From: Liolophura sinensis
Lineage: Eukaryota > Mollusca > Polyplacophora > Chitonida > Chitonidae
NCBI RefSeq assembly: GCF_032854445.1
Contig: NC_088299.1
Span: forward strand, 16,859,608 to 16,923,607
Direction of reading: 5' to 3'
Length of the DNA stretch: 64,000 nucleotides
Below, piece by piece: positions 1 to 39,000 of the stretch. Below the pieces are notes generated by a model, which worked only from the letters and a program-made list of their open reading frames with translations, was not told the origin of the DNA and ran no database searches. Both the position numbers and the translations under genes were made by a program. Position 1 is the stretch's first letter. Each line of letters opens with the position of its first letter.

Positions 1-139
1 GCAATTCCTCCGTTCCAAGCGGACACTGATCAGTCGTCGCCCTCCACAGGATGGAAAAAGTGCAACTGGTATCAACATCGACGAACAGAAACGCGCGCTG
101 TTGACTCAAAGACACTGGTGATGACTTTGCAACCGCTTT

Positions 140-460
140 AGAAAAGCTTGATGAATATTTCTTACCGAAGAAGAATGTGCGCTACGAACGGTACATGTTC
201 AAGGACGCACATCAGCAGTTCGTCACGCGACTCCGGTCCCTTACAATAACTTGTGAATTCCCGGAACCGGCCGACTCCATCGCCGTTCAAGTGGTGGACA
301 AGTCCAGATCCACCAATCTCAAACGCAGACTGTTGAGAGAATCTGATATGACATTAGATAAAATTCTTGACATTGACCGAGCCACAGAAACATCTGAACT
401 CCAAAGTCAGAAAATGGAAGTAAACTCAGAACCAGCCCCATCACTGTTAACAACCTCGTA
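140..460 (+). pseudogene. gag capsid-like fragment of the gypsy element
   Basis: One open frame from about 145 carries a capsid-like sequence typical of metazoan gypsy Gag: motif KKNVRYERYMF, then QFVTRLRSL, VDKSRSTNLKRRLLRE and LDIDRATETSE. Upstream (about 40-140) the same gag continues in other frames. The protein would build the particle; here it ends at a stop at 459-461 and does not run into the zinc knuckles. Confidence 0.85.
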
Positions 461-514
461 AACAAGCCAGGCAAATTTAGGCACAAAAGCTAAAAGCATA
501 CACCTTTTCAAAAA

Positions 515-826
515 CGCAAAAACAAACCACACAGAAATAATGAGTGTAGTAATTGTGGAGGTGTTTGGCCACATAGAAATACAAGATGTCCAGCTACTTG
601 TAAAACACATGGGAACTGCGGTAAACTCAACCACTTTGGTAGCGTGTGTCGTAGCTCACAAAATCGGACCAAAAAGCCCGTTAATCAAATACACGCAGAA
701 GTTACCCACACTGATTCATCATCAGGAGATGAGTATGTATTTACCGTTTGTGACAAAAGTAGCAGTGTAAAGTTTCCCACTAAACAGCCCAAAATTGCAG
801 TCAAAATAGCAGGCAGGTCCCATTCT
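515..826 (+). pseudogene. gag zinc-knuckle region and start of protease
   Basis: In one frame Cys/His spacing is visible: CSNCGGVWPHRNTRC followed by CGKLNHFGSVC, i.e. two CCHC-type knuckles as in retrotransposon nucleocapsid. The frame runs on into a Ser/Asp-rich linker and stops at 826-828. A protease-like active-site stretch (LVDSSASVNVL, with DSS where DSG or DTG is usual) follows in another frame at about 828-860. Frame changes and the altered active-site triplet mark it as dead. Confidence 0.8.
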
Positions 827-1289
827 TAGTTGATAGTAGCGCGTCAGTGAACGTGTTAGATAAATCATGTTACATTGAAATAAGGAAACACAAAAAAGTC
901 TCATTCGGCAAGCGAAAAACCAAAAATATTTGTCTATTGTTCCAAAATCTCTCTGCCTGTTATGGGTATTTTTGAGGCAAACATAGAAATATCAGAGAAA
1001 ACGTGCTCAGCTGTTTTTATGTGGTGAATCAAAATTCAGGTTCCTTGTTGGATTTTGAGACATCTACACAATTGGAACTTATCAAGCTCCCCACAGTGGC
1101 AGACAGTTTACGCCTCAATCTACAATCAGTGATAAAGCAGGGTGAATTCTTCAAAGAGAACAAAATAGTTTCTTACCACAACCTCTGCCATCAGTTAATA
1201 AACTCCCGACAGTGAAGAAAAATAATCCCGCATCAGAACAACCTCTGTCATTAACTGACAAGCTGATATCTGAATTTTTAGACATAATT

Positions 1290-2080
1290 GATGGTGTGGG
1301 CAAATTAAAGGACTACTAATTCAAAATACATGTAGATCCGTCAGTCAAACCTATTGCTAAACCACCACGACCCATACCATTCACATGAGAAAGCAGGTAG
1401 AATTTGAATCTAGAAAAAGTAGACATCATAGAGAAGGTTGATGGTCCTACACCATGGGTACCGCCAGTAGTGGTTGTCCCGAAGAAGGACAAATCAAGTG
1501 TGCGTGTCTGTGTCGCTATGAGGTCCCCAAATACTGCTGTCTTTCGTGAACGTCATCCAACGACCACCAAGGACGAAATCATACATGATTTGAACGGAGC
1601 GATAGTATTCTTCAAACTCGACATGCAACAAAGGTATCGAACTACACTCCTGACAACATTTGCCACACACAAAGGCCTGCGGCGATACAAGCACCTGATG
1701 TTTGTTTTGTCGTCAGCGTCAGAAATTTTCCAGGACGTGATTAAACAGACACTAAGTGACATACCGGGTGTGTAAAACCTGCCAGACGACATCATCGACC
1801 GAACACAAACTGAACATGACAAGTCGCTGCCAATGGTTTTCCAGAGACTTAGAGACAAAAGCCTTACACTCAGCCTGGAAAAATGCGTTTTTAACAAACC
1901 CAGTCTGGAGTTCTTCAGATTTGTATTTTCCAAGCAAAGAATATCCCCAGACACAGCAAAAGTGGACGCAGTAAAAAAACGCTCCAATTCCAGAGAATGC
2001 ATCGGGTGGGCGAAGCTTCCTAGGGATGAAAAACTAGGTGTCACGTTTCATTCACGACTACGCGACAATAACGGCCTTTG
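1290..2080 (+). pseudogene. Reverse transcriptase remnant
   Basis: The stretch from about 1404 to 1775 reads VDIIEKVDGPTPWV and VVVPKKDKSSVRVCV, the fingers region of gypsy RT, then FKLDMQQRY and FVLSSASEIFQDV in the palm. The run stops at 1773-1775 just before the place where the catalytic YxDD box is expected; DDIID-like codons follow at about 1785. A thumb/connection segment (SLEKCVFNKPSLEFF) continues in another frame at 1870-1960. Several stops and shifts; an internal loss around the catalytic box is likely. Confidence 0.9.
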
Positions 2081-2124
2081 GTCGTCTAAAATCCTCAATG
2101 TCAGATACGTCAGTGGTGTCGTAT

Positions 2125-2530
2125 TTTGATCCAAACAACACAACGGAAATCTACGTTGACGCCAGTCTGGTAGTTGTTGCTGCGATCCTTACATAGGTGG
2201 ACGGAAACGGACAACATCGCGTCATCTGCTACGCAAGTCGCAAGCTCTCGGACGTGGAACGCAGATATTACCAAACGGAACGAGAGGCTCTGGCCATAGT
2301 TTGGGCCTGCGAGAAATTTCATCTACATGTGTTTGGACAGTCATTCACTGTGATAACTGACCACAAGCCGCTGACACCGATGTTCAACAAGCCACGCTTC
2401 TAGTGTCCAGCACGCATCGAGAGATGGCAGCTTCGTTTACAACCATACGACATGAAAGTTGATTGCCAACCAGGGGCAAACAACCCTGCAGACTTCCTGT
2501 CTCGACATCCCCAGCCGACAGTTTCTTTCT
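2125..2530 (+). pseudogene. RNase H remnant
   Basis: Reads EIYVDASLVVVAA (first catalytic Asp region), then after an in-frame stop RVICYASRKLSDVERRY, TEREALAIVWACEKFHLHVFG and VITDHKPLTPMF, all diagnostic of gypsy-type RNase H. A stop lies at 2401-2403. The tail QPGANNPADFLSRHP, the usual link to integrase, is present at about 2470-2510. Confidence 0.92.
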
Positions 2531-2539
2531 CCGACAGAA

Positions 2540-3115
2540 GGCCGATGAATATGTCAATTTCATCATCCCAAACGGTGACTACCTCCTGGTTGTCATCGAT
2601 GATTATTCCCGATACCCGAAAATTGAAGTTGGGAAATCGACATCAGCCGCCCATGTAATTCCCAATTGGACAAAGTTTTCTCCACACATGGCACTGTCGA
2701 CGTACTCAACGCTTCAAACACAGAAAAGTAACTCATTACTGGCCCAAAGCAAACGGCGAGGCGGAACGTTTCATGCGGACCTCAGAAAAGGCTGCTCGAT
2801 CCTCTTTCATTGAAAAGGGAAAGTGGCAGAAAGATCTCAACCAGTTTCTGCTGCATTATCGAGCAACCCCACATTCAACAACAGGTGTATCTCCAGCCGA
2901 GCTGCTCTCCTCGCGGCCAATCAAGACCAAACTACCAGAACCTGAAAGCTCTTCGTGCAATGATAATCTGTAAAACAAGGTGATGCACAAGCCAAGCTGA
3001 AGATGAAAATTCGTTCCAACGCGAAATCTGTTGTCCGTGTCTCCAGCCTTAAACCAGGAGATACAGTCCTGCTAGCGGCCAAACGTGAAAAAAAAACTGT
3101 CAGCTGACAAAGGCC
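2540..3115 (+). pseudogene. Integrase remnant with internally deleted core
   Basis: The first core Asp motif (LLVVIDDYSRYPKIEV) is at about 2583-2630. The last-Glu motif (ANGEAERFMRT) follows only about 110 bases later, in another frame, so most of the segment that should hold the second catalytic Asp is missing. C-terminal parts DLNQFLLHYRATPHSTTG, SPAELLSSRPIKTKLP and PGDTVLLAAKREKK are readable up to 3110, where a later insertion interrupts the element. Confidence 0.9.
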
Positions 3116-4856: not shown

Positions 4857-6101
4857 CGAAGTAAGGCACCTCTGTAAAGGACGATGTCGACGTAATGGGC
4901 GCCATTTCAGTCTTTGTCGTGGCTGATGGGGTTGTCAGGTTAGAAGATCCACTCGGTTTTGAAGACGCTGTGAGTGGAATTGTGGCGCTTGAGTTTGAAG
5001 AGCTTGCAGTTCCATTGGTCACCGTTGTCGATGTAGTTGTCACATTTGTGGGTGCAGTGGTGTTTGTGGAGTTTGGGTTTGAAGAGTTTGTAGTTCCATT
5101 GGTCACCGTTGTCGATGTAGTCGTCACATTTGAGGGTACAGTGGTGTTTGTGGAGTTTGGGTTTGAAGAGTTTGTAGTTCCATTGGTCATCGTTGTCGAC
5201 TTAGTCGTCACATTTGAGGATACAATGGCGTTTGCGGAGTTTGGGTTTGAAGAGCTTGTAGTTCCATTGGTCATCGTTGTCGATTTAGTAGTCGCATTTG
5301 TGGGTGCAGTGGTGTTTGTGGAGTTTGGGTTTGAAGAGTTTGTATTTCCATTGGTCACCGTTGTCGATGTAGTCGTCACATTTGAGGGTACAGTGGTGTT
5401 TGTGGAGTTTGGGTTTGAAGAGTTTGTAGTTCCATTGGTCATCGTTGTCGACTTAGTCGTCACATTTGAGGATACAATGGCGTTTGCGGAGTTTGGGTTT
5501 GAAGAGCTTGTAGTTCCACTTGTCACCGTTGTCGATGTATTGGCCACATTTGAGGATGCAGTGGTGTTTGTGGAGTTTGGTTTTGAAGAGCTTGTAGTTC
5601 CACTGGTCACCGTTGTCGATGTATTGGCCACATTTGAGGATACAATGGTGTTTGTGGAGTTTGGTTTTGAAGAGTTTGTATTTCCATTGGTCATCGTTGT
5701 CGACTTAGTCGTCACATTTGAGGATACAATGGCGTTTGCGGAGTTTGGGTTTGAAGAGCTTGTAGTTCCACTTGTCACCGTTGTCGATGTATTGGCCACA
5801 TTTGTGGATGCAGTGGTGTTTGTGGAGTTTGGATTTGAAGAGTTTGTAGTTCCGCTGGTCACCGTTGTCGATTTAGTAGTCACATTTGTTGATGCAGTGG
5901 TGTTTGTGGAGTTTGGATTTGAAGGGTTTGTATTTCCATTGGTCACCGTTGTCGATTTAGTAGTCACATTTGTGCGTGCAGTGAGGTTTGCGGAGTTGGG
6001 GTTTGAAGAGTTTGTAGTTCCACTGGTAACCGTGGTCGATTTAGTGGTCACATTTGTGGGTGCAGGGGTGTTTGTTACGGCACTGGTAGACCTTACCTTG
6101 C
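4857..6101 (-). CDS. Mucin-type Thr/Ser/Asn-rich repeat exon
   Basis: A single long minus-strand exon of 415 codons made of about 14 copies of a 28-residue unit resembling NVTTKSTTVTSG + TTNSSNPNSTNTTAPT. Each unit holds two or three N-glycosylation sequons (NVT, NSS, NTT) and many Thr/Ser for O-glycans, so a secreted or cell-surface mucin is the natural reading. The 3' part is non-repetitive (SSKPSGSSNLTTPSATTK). Acceptor: ...GATGACAG before 6101 with a good pyrimidine tract (CTACTTTTTGTTTGCTTTTC). Donor: TTCG|GTAAGA at 4857/4856. Both limits are phase 1. An in-frame Met-led reading starting at 6255 crosses the acceptor and is a less likely start. Later exons lie below 4857 or outside the window; none was recognised. 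No specific orthologue is recognised. Confidence 0.75.
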
Positions 6102-6671
6102 CTGTCATCACAAGTAATACTGTGTGGGTCAAAGAATGTTCGCGATCCAGATGAAAAGCAAACAAAAAGTAGGAATTAGAACAGGTCAAGAGTACGTAAA
6201 TTCCCAAGAGCCACATCTTGGACACCAGTAATTCCCTAGCTAAGTTCAACGACATGCCGTGCGACGTGGATAAAGTGCCGGAAGATACAAAACATGCAAA
6301 TCTCCACTACTGAAATTAGATTTCGAAAACTCCCTTTACTAAACAGTTATTAAGTAACAATTTTGATGGACGACATTTCAGGTTTTAAAACACAATCTTT
6401 TTAATTTAAATTGTTGTAGTTATCTACCACTGTAGTCTTTAAGAGCATTAATACAATTACAGGAGAAACCCACGTCCATCCCGAGGTTGATGGCAGACCT
6501 AAGCTTCAACTGTCCTTAAATATTAATAACATTTCATAATAAAAAGCCCATTTTTACTTTTTCTGCTTTCACTTAATTTGATTCAACGTTGAGGTCCTGA
6601 ACTGACGCGTGGCTACAGGCTGTATCATATCTCTGCAGTTCAAGACGCTGAGCGTTGTAGGAAACACTTAC

Positions 6672-13200: not shown

Positions 13201-16200
13201 GAGCTTACGCAGACCATCCTGACAAAGCTTCTGACATACAAGAATCGAGCTTACTCAGGCAATGATAGGAAACCTTCTGACATACAACAACCGATCTTTC
13301 TTGGACAGTCCTGACAAACCTTTTGACGTGCACAAAACCGAGCCATGCAGCAAGAGCTGGGTTCCAACCTCCAAATTCGGTGAATATTTGTGAGGTAACT
13401 AATCTAACCAAGGTTCCAGTAGTTTCATTAAAAAGGGGCTCATTTTACCAGTTTTACGGTGCACTCCCATGAGTGTTAAGCTTATTTATCTTATGGGTAA
13501 CCAGGTCACTCATAAGAATTTACCACGGTAGACTTTGCACTAAGTCAACATACCACGCCTGTAAAGATTGCAAAAGAGGGGCAATATATCACTCACGTGG
13601 AGGTTGTGTTGAGAATACCCACAGATACAAAGTCAGCCATACAGACAGTACTCTTGTAAGCTGAAAAAAAAAAACAAGGCGGAGCAATGAATCTTCAGAC
13701 AGATTGACTTAGACACCATTCGGACTAAAGTCCTCTGCCACAGGCCTGATAAAGATGTCCCATGTTACACTTGAGTCAAACAGGTGATTGTAAAGTATGT
13801 GTGCCCAGGCACACAATGGGTACACATAACATGGCTCAGACAAATCCTTCACCACAGACGAATCTAAGAGAACTTCCGTAATAAACATTAGGCGGCCATC
13901 TGCAAAAACATGTGTCAGTGTCGTATTCTATTTTGCTTATTGCTTAAACACGTATTTATTTGATTGGAGTTTTACTCCGTACTCGAGAATACCTCACTTA
14001 CAAGACGGCGGTCAGTATTATGGTGGCAGGAAACCGGGAACAGCACAGACTGGCCATACACAGGTTGCTGCTAGACTTTCCCGCGTACTACCACTGAGAA
14101 AGCCAGCATGAGCTGGACTCGAACTCACAACGGGTTACCGAGGGGTTTCTGGGTCAATGAGCTGCGCTAGTACGCCAACCACTATTGTTTCAAAAGACCT
14201 TGATGATTATTTTACATAATATGTAAACTAATCATGAGTGGAATGAGTTTCTTTACGTTAAAAGTCAACTCTGTACAAACCCAATCTTATAACAGTCATT
14301 TTAAAGGAAATGTCACACTTCCACACATTTAAGATAACCAGTACGACATAACATTATGCTCCTGCAAAAATGTGAGGGTGCTTGGGGCACCTCCGTCCAT
14401 AAAACTGAATGACATCGTATAAGTGAAAGGTTCTTGAGTATTTATTTATTTATTCATTTGATTGGTGTTTTACTTTGGTATAGTGTTTTACGCCGTACTC
14501 AAGAATATTTCATTTATACGACGGCGGTCAGCATTATGGTGGGTGGAACCGGGCAGAGCCCGGGGGAAACCCACGACCATCCGCAGGTTGCTGGAAGACC
14601 TTCCCACGTGCGGCCGGAGAGGAAACCAGCGTGAGCTGGACTTGAACTCACAGCGACCCGCATTGGTGAGAGACTCCTGGGTCATTACGCTGCGCTAGCG
14701 CGCTAACCAGCTGGGCCATGGAGGCCCCTCACAGGAAATGAAGTTTGGGGTGAAAACAATGACTTCACATCACTATACTAAAGTAAGGCCCATAATGCAA
14801 ATTTAAGATACACCTGTCTCATTATCCTTCTGACCCAAACTTCAGTGTTTCCCCTTCAAATAAACTATGAACATCAGAAAGCAATGTAATGCGTACAGTA
14901 CCTACTCACATTCCTAATAACACCTGACGCCTGGACAGTGTTAACCTCGGCCACCACCATCAGTTTATAGCTTCCATCATTCAATCGTTCTACAAAACGC
15001 TCAGATGAAATATGAATACAGTTGTGTTTTAAAACAGCCATACAGTTTCCATTCCAGTATTCACTTTTTCAATCATAAACCATGATTTTGAATCTGGAAC
15101 ATGCAAAACACTTTTCCAAAATCTGCCTGTTGTTATGTCGGCAACATCACCTTGACACGCATACAATGTACAGCAAAGCGATGACGGCATGGTGATGAAC
15201 TGTAGGGTACCGCTCGGAAAGGTTTAAAACATCCATCACTACAGCTGATCAGTACCGTGTACTTTTGCTTCCACAAAGTGCCGTGCAGTAACCGCACAAT
15301 GCAGTGTAGTAGCCATACAGTACTGTGAGGTGAATAACGTGCTGTGCACACCATGTAGGCCCTAATGACAACTATACACATGAGAAATAAAAAGTAGCAG
15401 AAACGCATGATTATCTTTTGTGACGTTACAAATTTACGTATGTCAGTGAATGCATTAAGGTTCTCTTAATGATGAACTGTTACGCTAAAGGACGTGTTTA
15501 TGTGTAACTTCTCTCACTTAATCATGAACTGGTGTGCAACAGGGCGTGTTTATATATAACTTCTCTCACTTAATCATGAACCAGTGTGCTACAGGACGTG
15601 TTTATATGTAATCTCTCACTTAATCATGAATTGGTGTGCTACAGGACGTGTTTATGTATAATTTCTCTCACTTAAATATGAACTGGTGTACAACAGGACG
15701 TATTTGTGTGCAACAACTATCTCTCGGGGTTAAACACAGTAATTGCTTTACAGATTATATTCGCTTATATTATGGATGATAGTATATATTAGATTATATT
15801 CGAATAAAAGCTTTACAGCATGAAGACCAAAACCAGACCAGCGACGACAGTGTGATTATCGGAAAATGGTCAGGAGTAGCCGGTGAAATACGGCATCTTG
15901 TCACTTTACCTCAGGGTTTTATTTTAACTGTTTAATGTAAATGCATAAACAGCAACAGAATTAGGTCAAAAAAAATGGAATGCAGTGATGGTGGTTGCAA
16001 CAGTAAGACGTCACTAATCTGGAATTAATCAAAAATGCTGTATTGTAATTTAATTTAACAAGACAGATTAAACAACCACAAGGCAGATTAAACAACCACA
16101 AGGCACATTACACAACCACAAGGCAGATTAAACAATCACAAGGTAGATTAAACAACCACATGGCACATTACACAACCACAAGGCCAATTAAACAACCACA

Positions 16201-26175: not shown

Positions 26176-27086
26176 CTAAATCTGATAGGTTTCTGTTTTT
26201 TCTAGCGTTCCTGTCCGCCGTAACTGTGGCCCATGTTTAAGCTCAGTCACCAGCGAGTCTCTGACAACATCCATTGGCTTTTTCCCAAACTGGGCATTCA
26301 TTTCTGCCAACTCTTCCTCAGATGGAGGGGGAGGTAAATCCGGGAAGTCCTCCTCGGCCTCAGGGTGTGGATGTAGTGGCACACGCTCAGTGTGCACCTC
26401 AGCATACACTGAACTGTGGTTCTGACTCTGTCCGTATGTCTGTCCATACGCATGGCCGTGTTCCTCTGCTGACACTGCCGGCTGAGCCTTGGGGTTTTGG
26501 ACTTGATGCTGTGGTTTGGGGCGGGTCTGAGGAGGCTGTCGTTGTTGTTGTTGTTGGGGTGTTTGCTGTTTTGCTTGTTGTGGCGGTAACTGCTGTATTG
26601 GCTGTTGTTGTTGTTGTACTTGCGTCTGCTGAAGAGCAGCAAACTTGGCGTTCAGACTCTGTACGATACCAGAGATGGGCTGGGCTTGGCTCACAGGCGG
26701 CTCAGCCCCCGTCACATGAGGAACAGCATACTGGGGTGAGGGCGGGGCATTGACTTCGGCTGATGGGGCGATCACCTGCCCACCTACCTCGGGGGTGGCA
26801 TAATGAGAGTGTCCGTCCAACATGTCTGCACTCTTAGTATGCTTCATCTTGACCAGGGCCTCGTGTGCTTGCTCGCTGCCGCTGCTGTGGCTACGTCTGT
26901 GTAACATACTGTGCTGACCATCCAGCACGATGCGGGCATTCGCAGGAGGGCCTTTAGGGGGAGAGCGGCGGGTTTTCTGGAGCACTGGTGGAGGACCTCC
27001 TGTTATAGATGAACTGCGGCGCACAGGAGGGGGTGGCTTAGCATTCCGCTTCAATGAACCTATTCCCACTTGTGTGACAGGAATTC
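26176..27086 (-). CDS. MTSS1: MTSS1 last coding exon: Pro/Gln-rich region and WH2-like C-terminus
   Basis: Encodes 302 residues and a TAG stop (26176-26178). Starts GIPVTQVGIGSLKRNAKPPP + PVRRSSSI, continues with Pro-rich SH3-type stretches, a Gln-rich block (QQTQVQQQQQPIQQLPPQQ), Tyr-rich YAVPHV and HAYGQTYGQS, the acidic-Pro motif LPPPPSEEELAEMNAQF, and ends RDSLVTELKHGPQLRRT + GTLEKTETYQI. The LxxxLKxGxxLRRT spacing matches WH2, with LRRT for the usual LKKT. Acceptor TTACTGTCTGCAG, phase 1. Confidence 0.95.
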
Positions 27087-30000
27087 CTGCAGACAGTAAG
27101 CAAACATCATCAGTCGTTACTTCTGAATGCACAAAAACACTGCAATGAGCATGGATGTCGTTACACTGATACATACACGATTCCTAAACTACACCAGTCT
27201 TATAGTGATTCACAAATGTTTTGACAATGAGCATGCACAGAAAACTGTAGGCACAAATAAAACAGGCTCCAGCAGTCCTGCAGACTCCAGTATATATGTA
27301 ACTATGTACAGGTACATGCAGTATACATGCAGAGCTAGAAAGCAGGGTCTGCCGCTCATTTCAATTCATGGATAATTACGTGCACTCCATTCCCTGCCTT
27401 TCTAGATATCTACATTTCATATATAAGAAACTTTGAGAAACACAAATCAAAGGTGCATATCTTGCTTCGTTTAGCCAATGAATCTCTAGGCTAATATTCA
27501 TTTCCTGAGTTAACCATTTCCTCATGACATCATTACATGAGACGTTTTTGCATGGAAAACAAACCTTCTCATCAAATTGCGTTAATAACTTCCTACTCCG
27601 GAAAATTTGTGTGAACTTTTCATGTCTATATTTAAAAGGCATAATGTGTGAGAGCGGCATAACAAAAAGAACTCTACAACTTTAAGAACAACATACATGT
27701 ATAGCTGCATGTACAAGTAACATCAACAAAACCTGTTCATTTCTATGGTAACGGTTAAATTTGCCACAGGATCCACAACATGTTCTGATTAAAGGTATGT
27801 CTCAATAAGCAAAATGCTCGCTGCTGAGAAAGTGCCAGAGAAGAGACGACATGCAGAAGGACATGCAATGATGATGACCTGATACCTGTCAATACCCTTC
27901 ATTGTATTTATTTATTTATTCCTCTGATTCGTGTTTTACGCCATACTCAAGAATATTTCACTTATACGATGGCGGCCAGAATTATGGTGGGAGGAAACTG
28001 GACAGAGCCTGGCCGGGAACCAACCACCATCTGCAGGTTGCTGATAGATCTTCCCACATTAATATCGCCCTTCAGAGTAAAAACAATAGTAAGTATGTGT
28101 ACTCGTAAACCCAAACTACTAATACAAATAAATCTCTAAACTCCCAAACCAACATTTCCACAACTTTGGATTCAAAAACTCAGCTTCACGAAAGAATACT
28201 TTGCACTGATGAAAAGAGTTGTATTGATTTCATAAAACCATCAAAAAAAAAATAGACTTTGTTTATATGTGACGGTCACAGGATTCAGTGTTCCTGATGG
28301 TACATGTGCCAGCATCAATACTGTTCATGTGTGTACACATTCCAGGATGAATTCTGTCAGTTATCTGTAAGTTTAACTTTAAATTGTAGTTCCTGGCTAA
28401 GAGCCCCTTACACACCTGCTGTGGATGCAGGCCTGCGAGCTTCCAGGGTAGCCTTGTACGCCCGTAGAAACTCACTATTGCGAGGGATCGTGAAATACTT
28501 TTCTCGGTCAGGCAACATGATATCAACAGGGGTAACAAGCAACTCTGCAATTAACACAACATAAAAAACACACAACAAAATAAACAAAAGTAAAGAGAAA
28601 TCAAAATGTTAAGTAATTGATCGAGTCACATTCATTTTAGAAACAAGCACGTACATTTCAGTTTTATAACATACGAAAAAGAGAAGGATGACAATACTGA
28701 GAAATTTTATCATAGAAAACATGCACAAATGAGCTTAGACATACAGAAATATTGGTGAATTTTAAGTCAACAGCCCAGTATTAGTTCATCAAGCCATACG
28801 TCTACATGCTGGCCGAGGTGTAGATAGCAAAAAGTGGAATTAAACAGTCCACCTTGATCCAGTAAACAATAGTTTAGAAACTTGTCATGTCTAAATGTAT
28901 CATTTTGGAGATATGTTAAACCAGACCACAGCACGTGGCACCATGACGGCCAAACATTTTATGAAAATCATTCCAAACAAAGCTGTAGCCACTATTATGT
29001 CAATTGTACACTTGCACTTTGAGCAGATATGTCTGACTGCAGGCAAAGCCATAAACATCACAACTTGGTAGAGTGTTAGTTTACGGTCTCTAAATCAATC
29101 TTAGTTGCTTGTGGTTTGTTTTGCGCAATAATAGTACACACTATGGCTCTAAGACCAGGCAGTTCATGCAATGAGATAAGACAAGACAACACCAACCCCA
29201 TTCCCCGTCCCTGCTGAATTGTGTCAGACATACCTCCTGTAGTAATGGTGTCCTCCGAGCCCGATGGCGTACTGTTCATGGTCCCGTAGCCACTGGAACA
29301 CTGCAGAGAGCCACGGCTCGCATTGCTCCCATCTGGTTGGTCATAAGCAGTTGTCAATGCAGCTGTACTGGCTTCCAATTCTCGGATAGCCTCAGCCAGC
29401 TCCAAAGAGTTCTGAAGTTTCTGAAATAGCAGACGGATTGTGTCTTGAATTAAAACACCAAGATTTCATCAATGTCATAGAGTAATATTTTTTTAGGCAA
29501 GTAAGGTTATTTCAAAACATGTGAAAAAGTTCCATGAGACCAAACAGATTCAATGAATGCAAAAAAAATATATATGCACAAAAAATTAGAAGTTGTCATG
29601 TACAAAGCACACATGAAAGCTCACTACAGGTTGTAAAAAAGATAAATTCAAACATGTGTCAAAGCAGATAGAAATTAAAAGCAATTTACAAATATGGTAC
29701 ATATGACAAAACAGAGATACTGAATTTACCATTGAAGCACTAACAACAATACTAATAGCATGAGTTTGATACAAATCAATAAAGTTTGTCAGAAGAGAAG
29801 CAAGTATGTAATAAAGAAAAACAAAAACAAAAAAACTATTGTATTGTGTACTTAATAAAGATTAAAATATGCCTGGAATTTAATAGCAAGTATTCACCAA
29901 AGTGCAGGCATCAGCACAACCACACAAACCCATCACTTCCCCAGTACATGTGGTACCACCAACACCTAGAACTGAAGCCAACACCTAGAACCGAAGCCAA

Positions 30001-33000
30001 CACCAGAAGCCTACACACAAAGCATTCCACACTGAAGGTTATGAGGAGTAGGAGGCTACAGCACTAACCCTCTGATCTACTAATAGCCCTGGTTGGTGAT
30101 AAGGGGGGGTAAGCTGAGGGGAGATGCAATCCACACCTAATGATGACAGGGAGGAGAGGCCAAGGGGAGATTACTCCGCTTCACCATCAGGCTTTATCAT
30201 AAAAATCCCCACAATTCTCATCAACAGTCTGTATCAGCTGAATGGCTAATGAGTTATAAAAGTTGACATTCTGGTCACTCGTGTACACTTAACTGGTTAA
30301 GACTAAAAGCAATACAAAAACATCATTAATGTTTTCATATCTGTGGCAAAAAGATGTGTATTATGTACTTTGTAATTCATAAATCACAGAAAATAAAGTA
30401 CCAGAACCAGAAGTGTCTCTTGTAATTAAAAAAAGATGGACAATCATAAGAATAAAATGGAGCTGTGCAGAATGACATCACTGGTATCACTCAATCAGTT
30501 AATGGTAGATTTGGAGTATTTGCAACACTTGCACATATCAGCTATAGATATCAGTGAATATTTCCAATCAACCATCTCATGTGACATTTCTAGATTCATC
30601 TCTGGTAGTATTTTGATTGCGACAAACACATACTTTGATGATCTCCTACGTCTTTACTTTATCTTGTAATACAGAACAGTACGCATTCATCTGTTAATAC
30701 TACAATATTTCACAATTAGTTCCCACTGTTAATAAAGTTAATGGTTTCTGAAGTTTTATGGTTAATTATTACTGCATGTTAACATTTCAATCTTACCGCA
30801 CAAATTCAGTAAAAGTACGTATAGTTTGTAAGAAGACACTGTTGAGTACATATGTAAGTAAAATGTACATGTAGTTTGTAATAATAATAATAATAATAAA
30901 GTTACTCCTGAGTATCAGTACATGTAGTTTATAATAAGACACCGCTAAGTATAAGTACATGTAGTCTGTAATAAGACACCGCTGAGTATAAGTACATGTA
31001 GTTTGTAATAAGACACTGCTAAGTATAAGTACATGTAGTCTGTAATAAGACACCGCTGAGTATAAGTACATGTAGTATGCAAGTTTGTAACACGACACCC
31101 TTTGAGTATAAGTACAGTACTGGCACAGCCACACGAGCCGAGTACATGGCCTGGGTAAAGCATGCCACACAGCCACGCTGCACAGAACAAACCAACAGAT
31201 AAATGACCAGTCTAAGCTAACAGCACAGAGAGTAGAGATGAGGGGGAGAGTCAGCTAGACTAGCCAATCCTTGCCTGCGGAGGAAGGACCTGATTGGGCC
31301 CTTTGGGAGGCTTGGGGGCACTGCTCAGCTCTACCGGTTCTTCATAATCACTGTGAAGAGCGGCAGTACAGTTTTCTAGATCGCGGATGGCCTCCTGAAT
31401 ATCCAGGTCGCTCGGAGACTGAGAATGGCATGGAAAGGAAATGGGAAGGGCATCCAGTGTTAGTGGCCACACACAACATAATGTACATGTTCACATCAGA
31501 CTGCACGAGACACATGAATTGTACAGCTGACGTGTTCACAAGAGACTACATGAGATACATGTATTGTACAGCTGACATGTTCAGAAGAGACTGCCTGAGA
31601 CACATGTACAGCTGACATGTTCAGAAGAGACTGCATCAGATACAAGTATTGTACAGCTGACATGTTCACAAGAGACTGGACAACATATATGTATTGTACA
31701 GCTGACGTGTTCACAAGAGACTGGACAACATATATGTATTGTTCAGCTGAAGTGTTCACAAGAGACTGGACAACATATATGTATTGTACAGCTGCAATGT
31801 TCACAAGAGACTGGACAACATATATGTACTGTACAGCTGACATGTTCACAAGATACTGGACCACATATATGTATTGTTCAGCTGACATGTTCACAAGAGA
31901 CTCGACAACATACATATATTGTTCAGCTGAGGTGTTCACAAGAGACTGCACAACACACATGTATTTGTACTGAACAGCTGGCAGATTCAGGTACACCTGA
32001 CATGTTCCTGTGCATCTCTCTTCATAACAAAACTTCCAGAAAAATGGGTTCTTGTTTGCATTTACCCTCAATTTGTTTATGTCTACTTTTATGAAAACAT
32101 TTTTTGAGAAATATGGTTTGATTCAATTTCCCCTATTTTTTTTTTTCACTGAAGCCCTTAATACATATATATGTATATATTTTGTGGTACTTTAATTTTT
32201 TACATGAATTTCCCAAACTATCAAATTCCAAACCAAATATATGCACCCTAACAAGGAAAGTCACATCACGCACATTTGTGAATCTACTGTATTATTTCAC
32301 CACTTTGTAACATTCTGTAATGTGTGCAGTAGTTGTACAATGTAATTTAAATGTGAGAATGAGAGTGGTGTACTTGTGCTCAATTTTACTACCTCCCTGT
32401 CCTTAATATTTGTATATGTGATACATTGAATCCCCTTTATCAAAGAAATATCCAACTGACGACAATGCAAACAAACTGATTTGAAACTGGCATGAGTAAT
32501 ACAAAAACAAAAACAAAAACAAAATAAGAACACAAATGAAAACATGCGCCTAACAAACAGAAATCATACAAAGGCTTTGATGGAGAACTCAATGGGAACA
32601 TGCAGATTAGTCAAACGGAAGTTTAGCATAAAACATTAACAACATTTAAGCAAGGATTCAACTAAATCAAAACACTCTTATCTAAAACCTATGTTATAAC
32701 TACTACTTTATGCAGTGTGCATATCAAAACAAATGCTCTACAGTCTAACAAGGAGCATCAAGAAACAACAAATTTATCACTACTGCTTGATCCAGTCATT
32801 TTACACTACAAATTCTGTCCCCATAACTACTAGTTCTTGGACAGTGACTTTATTATCATCCATGACAACATCAAATCTACTACATGTAGTTTTATTTAAA
32901 GGAGGAGAAAACTTAAAACAATGACATTATAGGCTGAAAAGAGCATATTTTTTTCTATCTGGTGGCTGCTACATAATTTTGCGATTTTTCCTCGCCATAC

Positions 33001-36000
33001 GCATAAAGTCTGAAAATGACAAAGCTAGCATAAATTGCTGAGTTCATCGCGTCCTCCATCTTTAATACCCTACCCTGTAATATATGCTGGGGGTGTGTTG
33101 CCTCTCACCCACGTCCAACATTCCGGTGTACCGATCATCAAGTGGAAAACAAACTGTACTGTTTGCTGTCTTCTGAGAAGAAGAGTTCTACCGAAAATGT
33201 ATGAACTGCACTTCGGCAGTTTCCGACTGCAATTCTCCTCCTAACACAGAAGACTTCAGGACTAGTTCTTAGGTAAAATGTTGTCGCCTAGAGCGGATTT
33301 TGGCACTTTATTCATACTTTATCAACTTGAGGTACATACTAGAATTTTTATGGCATGCACCTGGGAGGAAATGCATACTCTTTTCAATGGTATTTGTTTG
33401 ATATTTAAATTTTCTTCTCCTTTAAGTTATTAAAGTGTGGCCTCCAATCATGATGGGTCATCAGCTTCCCTCATGTCTGACCGCCGATCAAGATATACCA
33501 GAACCAAGCAATGAAACACAAACCAAGGGAGAGCAAAAAGTAGTTTTACCTGCAGGTAGTCAGCCTAGAGTAGAGCAGAGTGAAAAACAGTCAGTCATAT
33601 TGGCAAGGCTTGGAGGCTCCTTCTCTACAGGACCCTTAGTAAGTTTGGCTCCTAAAGCTAAAGTGACCCTATCACACCTCAGAGAGTGTAGAGATTGCAG
33701 AACTAAAACCGATGTTCATGTCATGTAAATGCCAACTGACACTACTTAGATTTATGATACTACCTGTTGTTTGTAGCCTGGCAATATTAAGCAAATATTG
33801 CACTGCTTCTGAGTAAGATTTGAGGTTGACATTTGAGTGCAACTGCATCACGAAGGCAATGGAGAACAGTACAAGTCTACGGCGTGCAACCTGTGTGTAT
33901 TGTGTTATCAGGTGTAGTGATAGGAGCAACAGAATCACACACAGGTGCTCATAAAAACTGAATATGCAGAAACAATAAACACACAAGAAAGAAATAATGT
34001 GAATAAATTACAAATACGTGTACGTGTATTTACAAGTGTCTACACCGCAGAGACCGTGTGTCTAATCGCTTGCCAAAAGATGCAAGCTACAACAGTAAAA
34101 GTAGAAGGCATGCATAGTGTCCTATCACATACAATCCCACAAAGTGAAGCAGTAGAACAGTGATCCCAATTTGGTTCAGCCCCCATGTACAGTTCTATAA
34201 AGTAGGTCTAGATGACATGAACCCCAACACACATACACTTGTAAATTAGGTAGATAATCCTAAAAGAGGCAAAGCGTTAATTTAATCCACATTACTTCAC
34301 TAGAGGCTGGTTTGTTTCAGGGTTCTGTAGATTGTGATATTGGGCAGGTGAGCTGTTTACCTGTGTTGGCCCCGCTGACTGGGGTGTGGTCAGTCCCCCC
34401 TGGTCCTGGGGGGTGACAGGTGTCTGGGCATTGCTGTCAGTCTCTCCTCCGTCCTTCCCCTCGTGCTGTCTTTTCTCAGCCTCCATGCTGGCTAGCTCGT
34501 TCATGTTAACATACACCGGCAGCTCATCTGTACAACATACCACATGTGTTTAGTCATTCAGGTGTGCAAATGGCAGGATTTCAGCATCCCACAGATAGAG
34601 TCGGACTTACCTTTAGTTCCGTCTGTGTTTCCACTTTGACAACAAACCTGTGACCAACTTCCGCTTGTTACAATGCACCAATATACATGTTTGGACAAGT
34701 AGCCTGTGCTCTGTTACGTAAACTAGTCAACAGAGTGAGCATCTTTATTACCAGTGATCATTTACACTGAAACCATGTTGTAGTGTAGTCACGTATCATC
34801 TCAGCACTGACAGGAACATATGTAACTTGACAAGAAGAAATGCTAAAGAATTTATGACAAGGACATTGAGGTGCATGTTACCCTAGCAGCTTGGAAATCC
34901 TCATATTTATAACCCGTTTGCCGTAGACCACTGCCTCACCTGTTTCCATCATGGGCACGACAGGAGGCGGGACGGCCTTAGACTTAGGTTTAGGTCCCAG
35001 TGAGGGCATCACTGACTGGAGCTTGTTGATGGTGGCTGGTCTGGCGTAGTGAGAGGTACTGCTCTCTGGTCGGGCACCTAGGGAGGGTGGGGGGTGCCTT
35101 AGGACTGCAGAACCTTCCTTCTCGGGCACCTCCGGCACTGGGGGCTCGAACAGTGTGGCAGACAAGGCAGGTCGGGCATGTGACCTCTCGTAGGCTGTGG
35201 ATATTGTGTGTGGTCGGCTGCTATCCTGGCTAGACCCCATCTTTGGCTGTTCAGGCCAGTTGTTCCAAGTGGAGCTAGCTGATGGGGTGTTGGCCTGCTC
35301 TGATGGCGTAGACGGGGTGGAGTCGGTAGGGGTGCTCTCCCCTGTACTGCCTGCTTCGGCATTATTGCCCTACAACAACATCGTTATCAATCACAAGTAC
35401 ACTAAGACATTTTATATTGATGGATAACGGCATAAAAAATTCAGAAAAAATAACAGCCATAAGACCATAAGGTAACACATGGACACTTGTACTCATAATG
35501 TAACTAAATACAATTTAAGCAAATCTAAGCATTGTTTGTACATGTAAAGACATAAAGCAGCAAAGCAGGTATATGTAGATCAGCCAAGCAAAAGACCCTT
35601 AACCAGAAATGCTACCCAGTGAAGAGTAAAGAAAAATTGGACACAAATGTGGATAGGGACTGTAGTTAACCGATTCCTACCTTTACCATTACCATTTACA
35701 TAAACCTTCAAGATAATTATCCATACACAGATAAATCCACAATTTGAGAAATTAGTACATGTAATATTTGATAATCACAAGAGAGGGACATCCTGTGGAC
35801 GAGGAAGTGAGGGTGAAGGTGGGCTATGCACAGCTGCCAGACATGGTAGAATAGCAATCTGAAGAAAGTGAAAGGTTCAAATGGATAGAATCAGAAGAAA
35901 ATGACAGCTCAGAAAGACGCACACATCGTGAGTTGTAATACGTATGGTGCATACAGGTGGAACTAACAGACTGTGTATGTAAGGCCTACGTATCACCCAC

Positions 36001-39000
36001 TATATGTACATCGCCAGTGGTGAACAGTTTGGATACCTTCTGAAAGACCCAGCTCATAATTTATGCTTAAAAAATTACTTGCAACTCTCTTTTCTTTTTC
36101 ATTCTGTTACAATTGACTGCAAAGAAACCGTACATCTTCCATCAAACATACTCCACATGGCATCTGGTCAATATAATATATTCATTAGTCAACGAAGATT
36201 TGCTTTCTACTCACATTTACACAACAGTAGACTGGTTTTTATTCTGAGTACTCAGTATCCATATGTACATGTAGTGTTGATCAGGAAAAGTATGTAGGTT
36301 GTGTCTAGAGGTGAAAAATTGTGTGACCTTGTGGACATCTTCCCAAAAAACAGGACAGGCTAACCAAACTTTTGACATCAAGCAACAAAAAAAAAAAATA
36401 AACATTTCATATAATGAAGTGGGGCCTCCGTGGCTCAGTTGGTTAGCGCGCTAGCTCAGCGTAATGACCTGGGAGTTTCTCACCAATGCGGACGCTGTGA
36501 GTCGCTAGTCCAGCTCTTACTGGCTTCCTCTCTGGTGGAACGTGGGAAGGTCTGACAGTAACCTGCGGATGGTCGTGGGGTTCCCCCAGGCTCTGCCCGG
36601 TCTCTACCCACCATAATGCTGGCCGCCGTCGTATACGTGAAATATTCATGAGTACGGCGTAAAACACCAATCAAATAAATAAATAACTATATCATATAAT
36701 GAAGTTGAAAAGTAGTGAAAATGCATGAAATAGCAAAAATAACAACAACGGCCGTAACTGAGCATTAGACTTGTGCAAGGGGGACAGGATGTCTATGAGT
36801 GGATCAAGCAGACAGTGGAACACACCACAGGCGGATGGCTGGAACACTCAGCGCAAGAAGGAACAATGGGGACACAATACATAGGGATGGGTGGAACAAT
36901 GAACACAACAATGTTGGGTGAAATACCTGGGACACAACATGAAGTGTCTGGGTTGCACAATATTGGGGGGGGGGGGGGGTGGTGAGAGAGAGGAGAAGAA
37001 GGCACATAATAAACCTGATGGGGTGCAGTTAACAGCAGGGGAGCACAACACGTACACTGGGACAGGCATACCTGCTGATGTCTAAGATCAAGAGATTTCG
37101 GGGTGGCTGGTCTCTGAAATATGGTATCCTGAGAGGTAAAACCAGAGTCCTGGGACGAGACACTGGTCAAGCGAACAGTGCCAACAGGGATCGGCTGTCA
37201 GACGGGAAAAAACATGAGGCTTAGCCAGACGAAACGAGGAGAAGGGCTGAGGGTCAGGGTGATACACAGTACACTATGGCAAACCAGACCAGGCACAACT
37301 GCTTTATGAAGTTGTCAACAGTTTGGTTGTGCTTTCTCAAGGACCAGCTCAAAATTTTGATTTCCAAACATCTATTTAATACAGGGGAATACTCGTACCC
37401 AATATTTTTTATTTATTCAATTTAATACCATTTCAAAAAAAGTTTCACTGCTTTCAGTGCTGTTAACCCTTGTCCTACCATGTAAGGTGAATACCTCAAC
37501 TACAAGCAGCTGGCAGGAAGGGGCTAATTGAAGCCGTTTTTGAACTCATCAAAAGAATTTACAGAATTGAGTTTGGGATCCTAAACTAATGATCACTGGA
37601 CAACAGAATTTGTACTCGCTTTGCCCAACTCTGTGTCAATATCAGCCTCTGGCAGGACAAGGGTTCAAATAACTTGTTTGTTGTAAATATTAAAAGGTAC
37701 TGTGAGAGCTGTGTTGCCAATTTCCTGGTCCAGTCTGTACCTGTCAATCATCCATTATCACAGTCTGACTGACATGCTGTACACATTCCACAGAACATAC
37801 CTCACTCAGCCGGCAAAACCACTGTGGTCAAAAACTACGTGCAAAACTGGCAAAATATCTTAATGTCATTCTTCACTTTCATGCGCAGAAAGAAAAAAAA
37901 TGCCTACAGCATAGTAGTGATGAAAGTAACAGAAAACATTACAATGCTCCATGTAAAGACTGAGGCTTATCCAGTTGTCCATGCAGACATGTCCATATTC
38001 TTTACTTTTAAATTAATTTCTGGATCAAAAATACAAGATTTATTGCACTCAAGAGGATAAATATGAGTTGACAAGAAAAATAAGACCACCAAGATATGAG
38101 ACACATATAGTTAAATGCCTGGCATTTAGCAATTATGTCTTCACAACATGAGAGTATGTGTACATGTATGTGCAAGTCTCCAATGAATAGAAAGTGAAAG
38201 CCATTAACCTGTTTAATCAGAATGCCGAAATTTTTCCTGCAACCATTTTGTGTCATTTATTTGGATAACAGAAATAGCTACTGAAATTTGCCAGACATAA
38301 AAGTGTTGTATTTACCTGATCCTACCCTATTCAACATCTAAGACTATGCATATCTTCACTAACCACATCTCACTAGCACGCACGGGACAGGTCAATATCT
38401 ACTGCAGGAGCCCCCTCCCATGTTACAGGAGAAATGGTAAAGCAATTGAGCTTGAAGCTGTTAGTGCTGTATGATATGCATATAATATGTTACTTGACCA
38501 GAGTAAATATCGTAATGCATGGTTTATGAAGGAATGATCTACCCTGGAATGCTGTGATCAATAAATCATAAGACTAGGGTTCAATACACACGAGTATATG
38601 CAGAAATAAATCCACACATACGCTATAAACAAAGTCATAAATGTAATCATTATACCTCATAGGGTAATTCTCGGTTTCCACTGGTCACAATGATATTCCG
38701 CAAAAGATGATGTAAAACAATCACGTGCGCCAAGAACGCAACGTCACACTCACAAAGTATTATCCCACGTTCACGAGGCAATATTCAAAGATCTCGTGCT
38801 AATATCCACTTATCAGGTGTGGTTATTCCACAGCAGTTATCTCCCTTTGAGAGCCTTCTGGCATCTGCTTGTTCGTAAAATAAACAACTGGAAAGCAATT
38901 ATAGCTCCCTTATCGACGTACAAATTTGGCAATTTACAGTACAACTTGAAAAGGTACTGTTTTATCAGTATAATAAAATATAAGGTGCATCCTGTGAGGT

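Follow-up and report, generated by a model that had tools for sequence, protein, structure and literature searches.

Partial duplication of a helix-coding exon, and its possible optional use, in an MTSS gene of the chiton Liolophura sinensis

Why should two neighboring exons of one gene encode similar short helices that end in the same tyrosine motif, and might one of the two be optional? The question is raised by a 64,000-nucleotide stretch of the chiton Liolophura sinensis (RefSeq assembly GCF_032854445.1, contig NC_088299.1, positions 16,859,608 to 16,923,607; hereafter the window), which contains most of one MTSS (missing-in-metastasis, MIM) gene on the minus strand. An earlier note, made from the letters alone, had placed the two exons at 31290-31418 and 29234-29420 and had proposed a partial exon duplication. 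Both are found at these coordinates, on the minus strand (the note gave no strand), and 29234-29420 is the next exon downstream of 31290-31418 in the gene model; they are called here the downstream and the upstream copy. The explanation favored here, with a probability of roughly 0.6, is that an ancient partial exon duplication, probably under coding constraint, provides an optional second docking helix together with a second YxxP tyrosine.

The two exons are homologous over part of their length. Near the exon starts, a 24-residue segment aligns without gaps at 13/24 identical and 19/24 positive residues (E 3e-8, a single comparison), and the Smith-Waterman score of the exon pair, 66, is reached in 0 of 20,000 shuffles, the maximum of which is 48. 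Both copies end in Y-E/D-x-P, as YEEP and YDQP, past which the local alignment stops, and homology covers approximately the first 28-29 residues only. The note's "near-identical helical segments" accordingly stand as a shared segment with a shared ending, the copies themselves having diverged well short of near-identity. From the exon start, which in each case follows a phase-0 acceptor, the homologous segment is 12 nt away in the upstream copy and 15 nt away in the downstream copy, a difference of one codon that favors copying together with the 3' splice site. These are homologous neighboring exons within one gene, that is, a tandem exon duplication, and the clear homology with the same 5' boundary and phase upholds the proposal that it was a partial one. 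A six-frame scan of the window found no third copy, the best other score being 24.5 vs 95.5 and 89.0 for the known pair. Queried against the 609-Mb assembly with E allowed up to 10, the exons each matched their own place only and missed the sister exon as well; because the sister exon was not recovered, diverged copies elsewhere would be missed by the same searches. A search for relatives in viral contigs returned none.

The frames would permit optional use. Both copies start in phase 0, the phase in which the exon before them ends, but only the upstream copy also ends in it, the downstream copy ending in phase 1; as had been claimed, the first exon (129 nt, 0-0) is a multiple of three and skippable, and the second (187 nt, 0-1) is not. 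With the upstream exon left out, the frame and the stop downstream are kept, and the tail model has 606 residues vs 649 or 654 with the exon included. Because the end phases differ, the copies are not exchangeable in frame, and a mutually exclusive pair is ruled out on the same ground (0 vs 1); by length alone, 43-48 vs 62 codons, the copies fit the 20-residue default of PMC3228551. Where the upstream exon ends on its 3' side is uncertain. On a donor matrix that is approximate, based on the metazoan consensus and a relative guide only, the GT donor at 31290 (CAG/GTCCTT) scores 2.0 bits, the weakest of ten scored, and a GC donor 15 nt on (CAG/GCAAGG), which keeps the frame, scores 4.7 bits; the remaining eight donors of the model score 6.0-11.1 bits, leaving both candidates of the upstream copy lowest of the ten. 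The true exon may be 31275-31418. Its frame is open and its acceptor intact (7.5 bits). A weak or GC donor is compatible with optional use without showing it, and optional use of the upstream exon is in this way possible by frame and hinted at by the donor.

The divergence between the copies is probably that of coding DNA over a long time. Because third codon positions are near saturation (third-position distance between copies 1.13), the duplication is old; codon positions 1, 2, and 3 differ at 9, 5, and 14 of 24, and 9 of the 13 identical residues are encoded by different synonymous codons. Pairwise between the copies, nonsynonymous divergence (dN) is 0.38 and synonymous divergence (dS) 1.89 by NG86, and 0.45 and 0.99, respectively, by YN00. 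In neutral simulations given the same number of differences as observed, so few amino-acid changes arise in 5, 9, and 12 of 2,000 runs at transition biases of 1, 2, and 4. The upstream copy is likely, though not proven, to be under coding constraint. Homology, a common 5' boundary and phase, in-frame skippability, and an excess of synonymous change are all directly observed at this locus.

Under the favored explanation, an old tandem duplication would have carried the 5' part of the helix exon and its 3' splice site upstream, where the copy would have retained the helix and the Y-E/D-x-P end and added a donor and a proline-rich tail of its own; for much of its later history it would probably have been translated. 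The downstream exon would be the original and the upstream exon an alternative cassette, whose inclusion would add a second short docking helix and a second YxxP tyrosine to MTSS. This docking helix may correspond to the segment of vertebrate MTSS1 that has been published as a predicted export signal and C-helix, and inclusion would then tune partner binding, not membrane or actin binding.

What such a helix might do is suggested by vertebrate MTSS1. AlphaFold, run on single sequences, predicts a helix at residues 4-21 of the upstream copy and 2-26 of the downstream copy. The mouse exon 14 peptide LTLALSRGLQLDVQRSSRDSL has been published as a potential nuclear export signal and ends in SRDSL (PMC2194783), to be compared with SRGSL after the downstream helix. 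A helix followed by SRxSL, the arrangement of the exon-14 segment, is present here, a short anchor only; because SRGSL matches mouse SRDSL, the downstream exon is taken to be the older one, from which the upstream exon was copied. The presumed collinearity with human MTSS1 is a further ground. The human counterpart of the mouse peptide, residues 487-495 of MIM (LALALSRGL), is a predicted C-helix (LIG_GBD_Chelix_1), a ligand of the WASP/N-WASP GTPase-binding domain; according to the same paper, ELM leaves the mouse C-helix undetected (PMC6411742). Membership of the chiton helices in this class was rejected, the +1/+5/+9 hydrophobic spacing occurring in 0/2 copies; the printed human and mouse peptides do fit it. 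The CRM1 minus-orientation export pattern FxFxxxFxxFxxF (F = hydrophobic), termed the reverse of class 1a, is fitted by both copies at the first four of its five positions and by neither at the fifth (PMC4596688). Export patterns are common: approximately 7% of shuffles match one of ten (677 and 663 of 10,000), and 8 of the tail's 10 matches lie outside the two copies. The four-position form is labeled 1d-R here.

The tyrosines may point to another class of partner. Phosphorylated YxxP is the CRK/CRKL SH2 consensus (PMC5043372). With the upstream exon, the 654-residue tail model holds five YxxP, a number reached by 132 of 5,000 shuffles (110 with the shorter exon), and without it four, reached by 311 of 5,000; the YxxP excess in the tail is marginal. 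In the preceding exon, YVNM at 34502-34513 (minus strand) fits both the GRB2 (YxN) and the p85 (YxxM) SH2 consensus. A bolder proposal, and a doubtful one, is that helix and YxxP form a splice-controlled module yielding one-dock and two-dock scaffolds, in which motif dosage, not a swap, alters SH2 adaptor recruitment or nuclear export. If this were true, each I-BAR dimer would carry two or four docks, and SH2 recruitment would be tyrosine-kinase-dependent.

Several observations weigh against the favored explanation. The structure models are single-sequence ones, with mean pLDDT (predicted local distance difference test) of 72.0 and 63.7; the hydrophobic moment is ordinary, 779 and 3,205 of 10,000 shuffles reaching it; and the mouse helix aligns convincingly with neither copy. 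Five splicing-factor motifs show no clear enrichment beside the upstream copy; a lone QKI-type site upstream of it (1 vs 0.2 expected) was not counted as evidence. The 24-residue segment was picked for its similarity, which biases dN/dS down. The drift test, a one-sided model with the upstream copy unconstrained and the other copy frozen, is only moderate: at least 13 identities and an open frame survive in 1,241, 168, 8, and 1 of 5,000 runs at 0.3, 0.5, 0.7, and 1.0 changes per site. Finally, blastn of the exons with 1 kb on each side, a low-power comparison that left the exon pair itself unrecovered, found no intron homology, its output consisting of the overlap of the two stretches plus matches at E 0.27 or worse; of the alignment of exons and flanking introns suggested earlier, the exon part bears homology out and the intron part gives no significant similarity.

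These points bear differently on the explanations that compete with an optional exon. Given that coding constraint needs no alternative use and that the frames equally suit constant inclusion, the upstream exon could be a true coding duplicate that is constitutive, both helices being present in every mRNA and working jointly, perhaps as a hairpin or a two-site dock, with nothing optional; this is unlikely, though it deserves to be taken seriously, and what speaks against it is the weakness of the candidate donors (2.0 and 4.7 vs 6.0-11.1 bits for the other eight, on the approximate matrix). It is considerably harder to regard the upstream exon as a decayed copy, a pseudo-exon no longer spliced in: the GT donor is weak, and 1,241 of 5,000 drift runs at 0.3 changes per site leave the copies this similar and the frame open, but a third-position distance of 1.13 is more change than 0.3 per site, the frame is open, the acceptor is intact (7.5 bits), and amino-acid changes are fewer than in the neutral simulations, so that decay is improbable. 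Least credible of all is that the likeness stems from a peptide repeat inside what was one exon until an intron divided it, or from convergence on a short docking motif. The exons are indeed unlike past the first 28-29 residues and intron similarity was not found by the low-power blastn, yet 24 residues are similar without gaps, and the distance from the phase-0 acceptor to the start of the copy differs by no more than a codon between the two.

That the gene is an MTSS gene, as the earlier note held, is borne out at its I-BAR end. The joined translation of two I-BAR exons finds the solved MTSS1 I-BAR domain 2d1l at E 7.3e-27, its sole solved-structure match at E up to 0.01. Five segments of the contig's minus strand match the IMD family, ordered as in the profile; four lie within the window and the 5'-most approximately 5 kb past the window end. 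One of them passes the family cut-off, the rest being weak, short exons, of which one contains 2 internal stops. Pfam gave sub-cut-off matches only, both on the tail model and on the separate exons, and at E up to 5 the expected C-terminal WH2 domain was not matched in the tail model. Near the stop, RDSLVTELKHGPQLRRTGT (26206-26262, minus strand) resembles the WH2 pattern. Two other candidates for the copies were set aside: ANC1_spectrin, which stays under the curated cut-off and came to 3.4e-4 only when the query combined the two copies, and three chains from a PDB search (E 0.34-0.77), read as chance.

Table 1. Coordinates of the two exon copies and of the features around them in the window.
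Feature	Positions	Strand	Description
Upstream copy, GT donor	31290..31418	-	129 nt, 43 codons, phase 0-0; reads SPSDLDIQEAIRDLENCTAALHSDYEEPVELSSAPKPPKGPNQ
Upstream copy, better-scoring GC donor CAG/GCAAGG	31275..31418	-	144 nt, 48 codons, phase 0-0
Homologous 24-codon segment, upstream copy	31335..31406	-	LDIQEAIRDLENCTAALHSDYEEP
Downstream copy, helix then SRGSLQCSSGY	29234..29420	-	187 nt, phase 0-1; reads KLQNSLELAEAIRELEASTAALTTAYDQPDGSNASRGSLQCSSGYGTMNSTPSGSEDTITTG
Homologous 24-codon segment, downstream copy	29334..29405	-	LELAEAIRELEASTAALTTAYDQP
Preceding exon of model, DELPVYVNMNELAS...AGPTQ	34361..34527	-	phase-0 end
Following exon of model, ELLVTPVDIMLPDREKYFTIPRN...	28416..28544	-	129 nt, phase 1-1; placed by its boundary motifs
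45-bp tandem array, 10.9 copies	31485..31970		starts 67 bp before the acceptor of the upstream copy
37/74-bp tandem array	30908..31076		intron between copies, ~200 bp downstream of the upstream copy

The surroundings of the copies (Table 1) have features of their own. The following exon is also a multiple of three in length, hence skippable in frame too. The upstream copy is flanked by two minisatellites, the nearer one 67 bp from its acceptor; because tandem arrays are numerous in the window (28 overlapping rows), this placement may be chance, and variation in array length beside the upstream copy could affect its inclusion. Elsewhere in the window, a 429-codon open frame at 4865-6151 (plus strand) consists mostly of an 84-bp tandem unit present 13 times and is rich in valine and phenylalanine. 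Translations at approximately 27878-28105, 13830-14108, and 14413-14695 (plus strand) and 36446-36670 (minus strand) resemble, by eye, one interspersed repeat, which in one frame reads TPYSRI-H-DGGQ-YGGRK, and broken frames at approximately 100-2980 (plus strand) resemble a retroelement polyprotein, by eye only.

Among the matches listed, no paper treats MTSS splicing in mollusks or this exon, subscription journals lying mostly outside the search. A pearl-oyster paper (PMC6434816) reportedly mentions MTSS1 once. The accessible text of a Drosophila MIM paper (PMC12839969) mentions splice variants and has nothing on this helix. In the mouse, the Mtss1 exon 12/12a switch (Glassmann 2007, PMC2194783) likewise varies this gene through alternative exons that precede exon 14; exon 12a, however, was reported from mammals only and is not described in the accessible part of that paper as a copy of exon 14, whereas the extra exon here copies the helix exon. 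The C-helix of human MIM (Petrov 2019, PMC6411742) is similarly a short predicted helix in the same protein region, but its +1/+5/+9 hydrophobics are in neither chiton copy and the motif itself is predicted only. SNAP25 exon 5, U2AF1 exons 3/Ab, and oyster AOX resemble the present case in that duplicated exons give protein variants from one gene; unlike them, the end phases here are 0 and 1 and allow no in-frame replacement. As in BCAR1/p130Cas, whose YxxP tyrosines are bound by the CRK SH2 domain (PMC5043372), both helix copies end in YxxP, although BCAR1 has 15 such motifs together with SH3 and FAT-like domains, and the tail model of the chiton gene has five candidates for such sites, marginally enriched.

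Alternative use of duplicated exons is a familiar phenomenon; here a partial duplication has probably been kept as an in-frame addition. Should the upstream exon be used, the gene would offer a clear example of a duplicated exon retained as an in-frame add-on and not as a swap; in mammals, the middle of the protein is varied through other exons. Use of the upstream exon would also mark out the helix before SLQCSSGY, the roles of which are predicted only, as a functional module.
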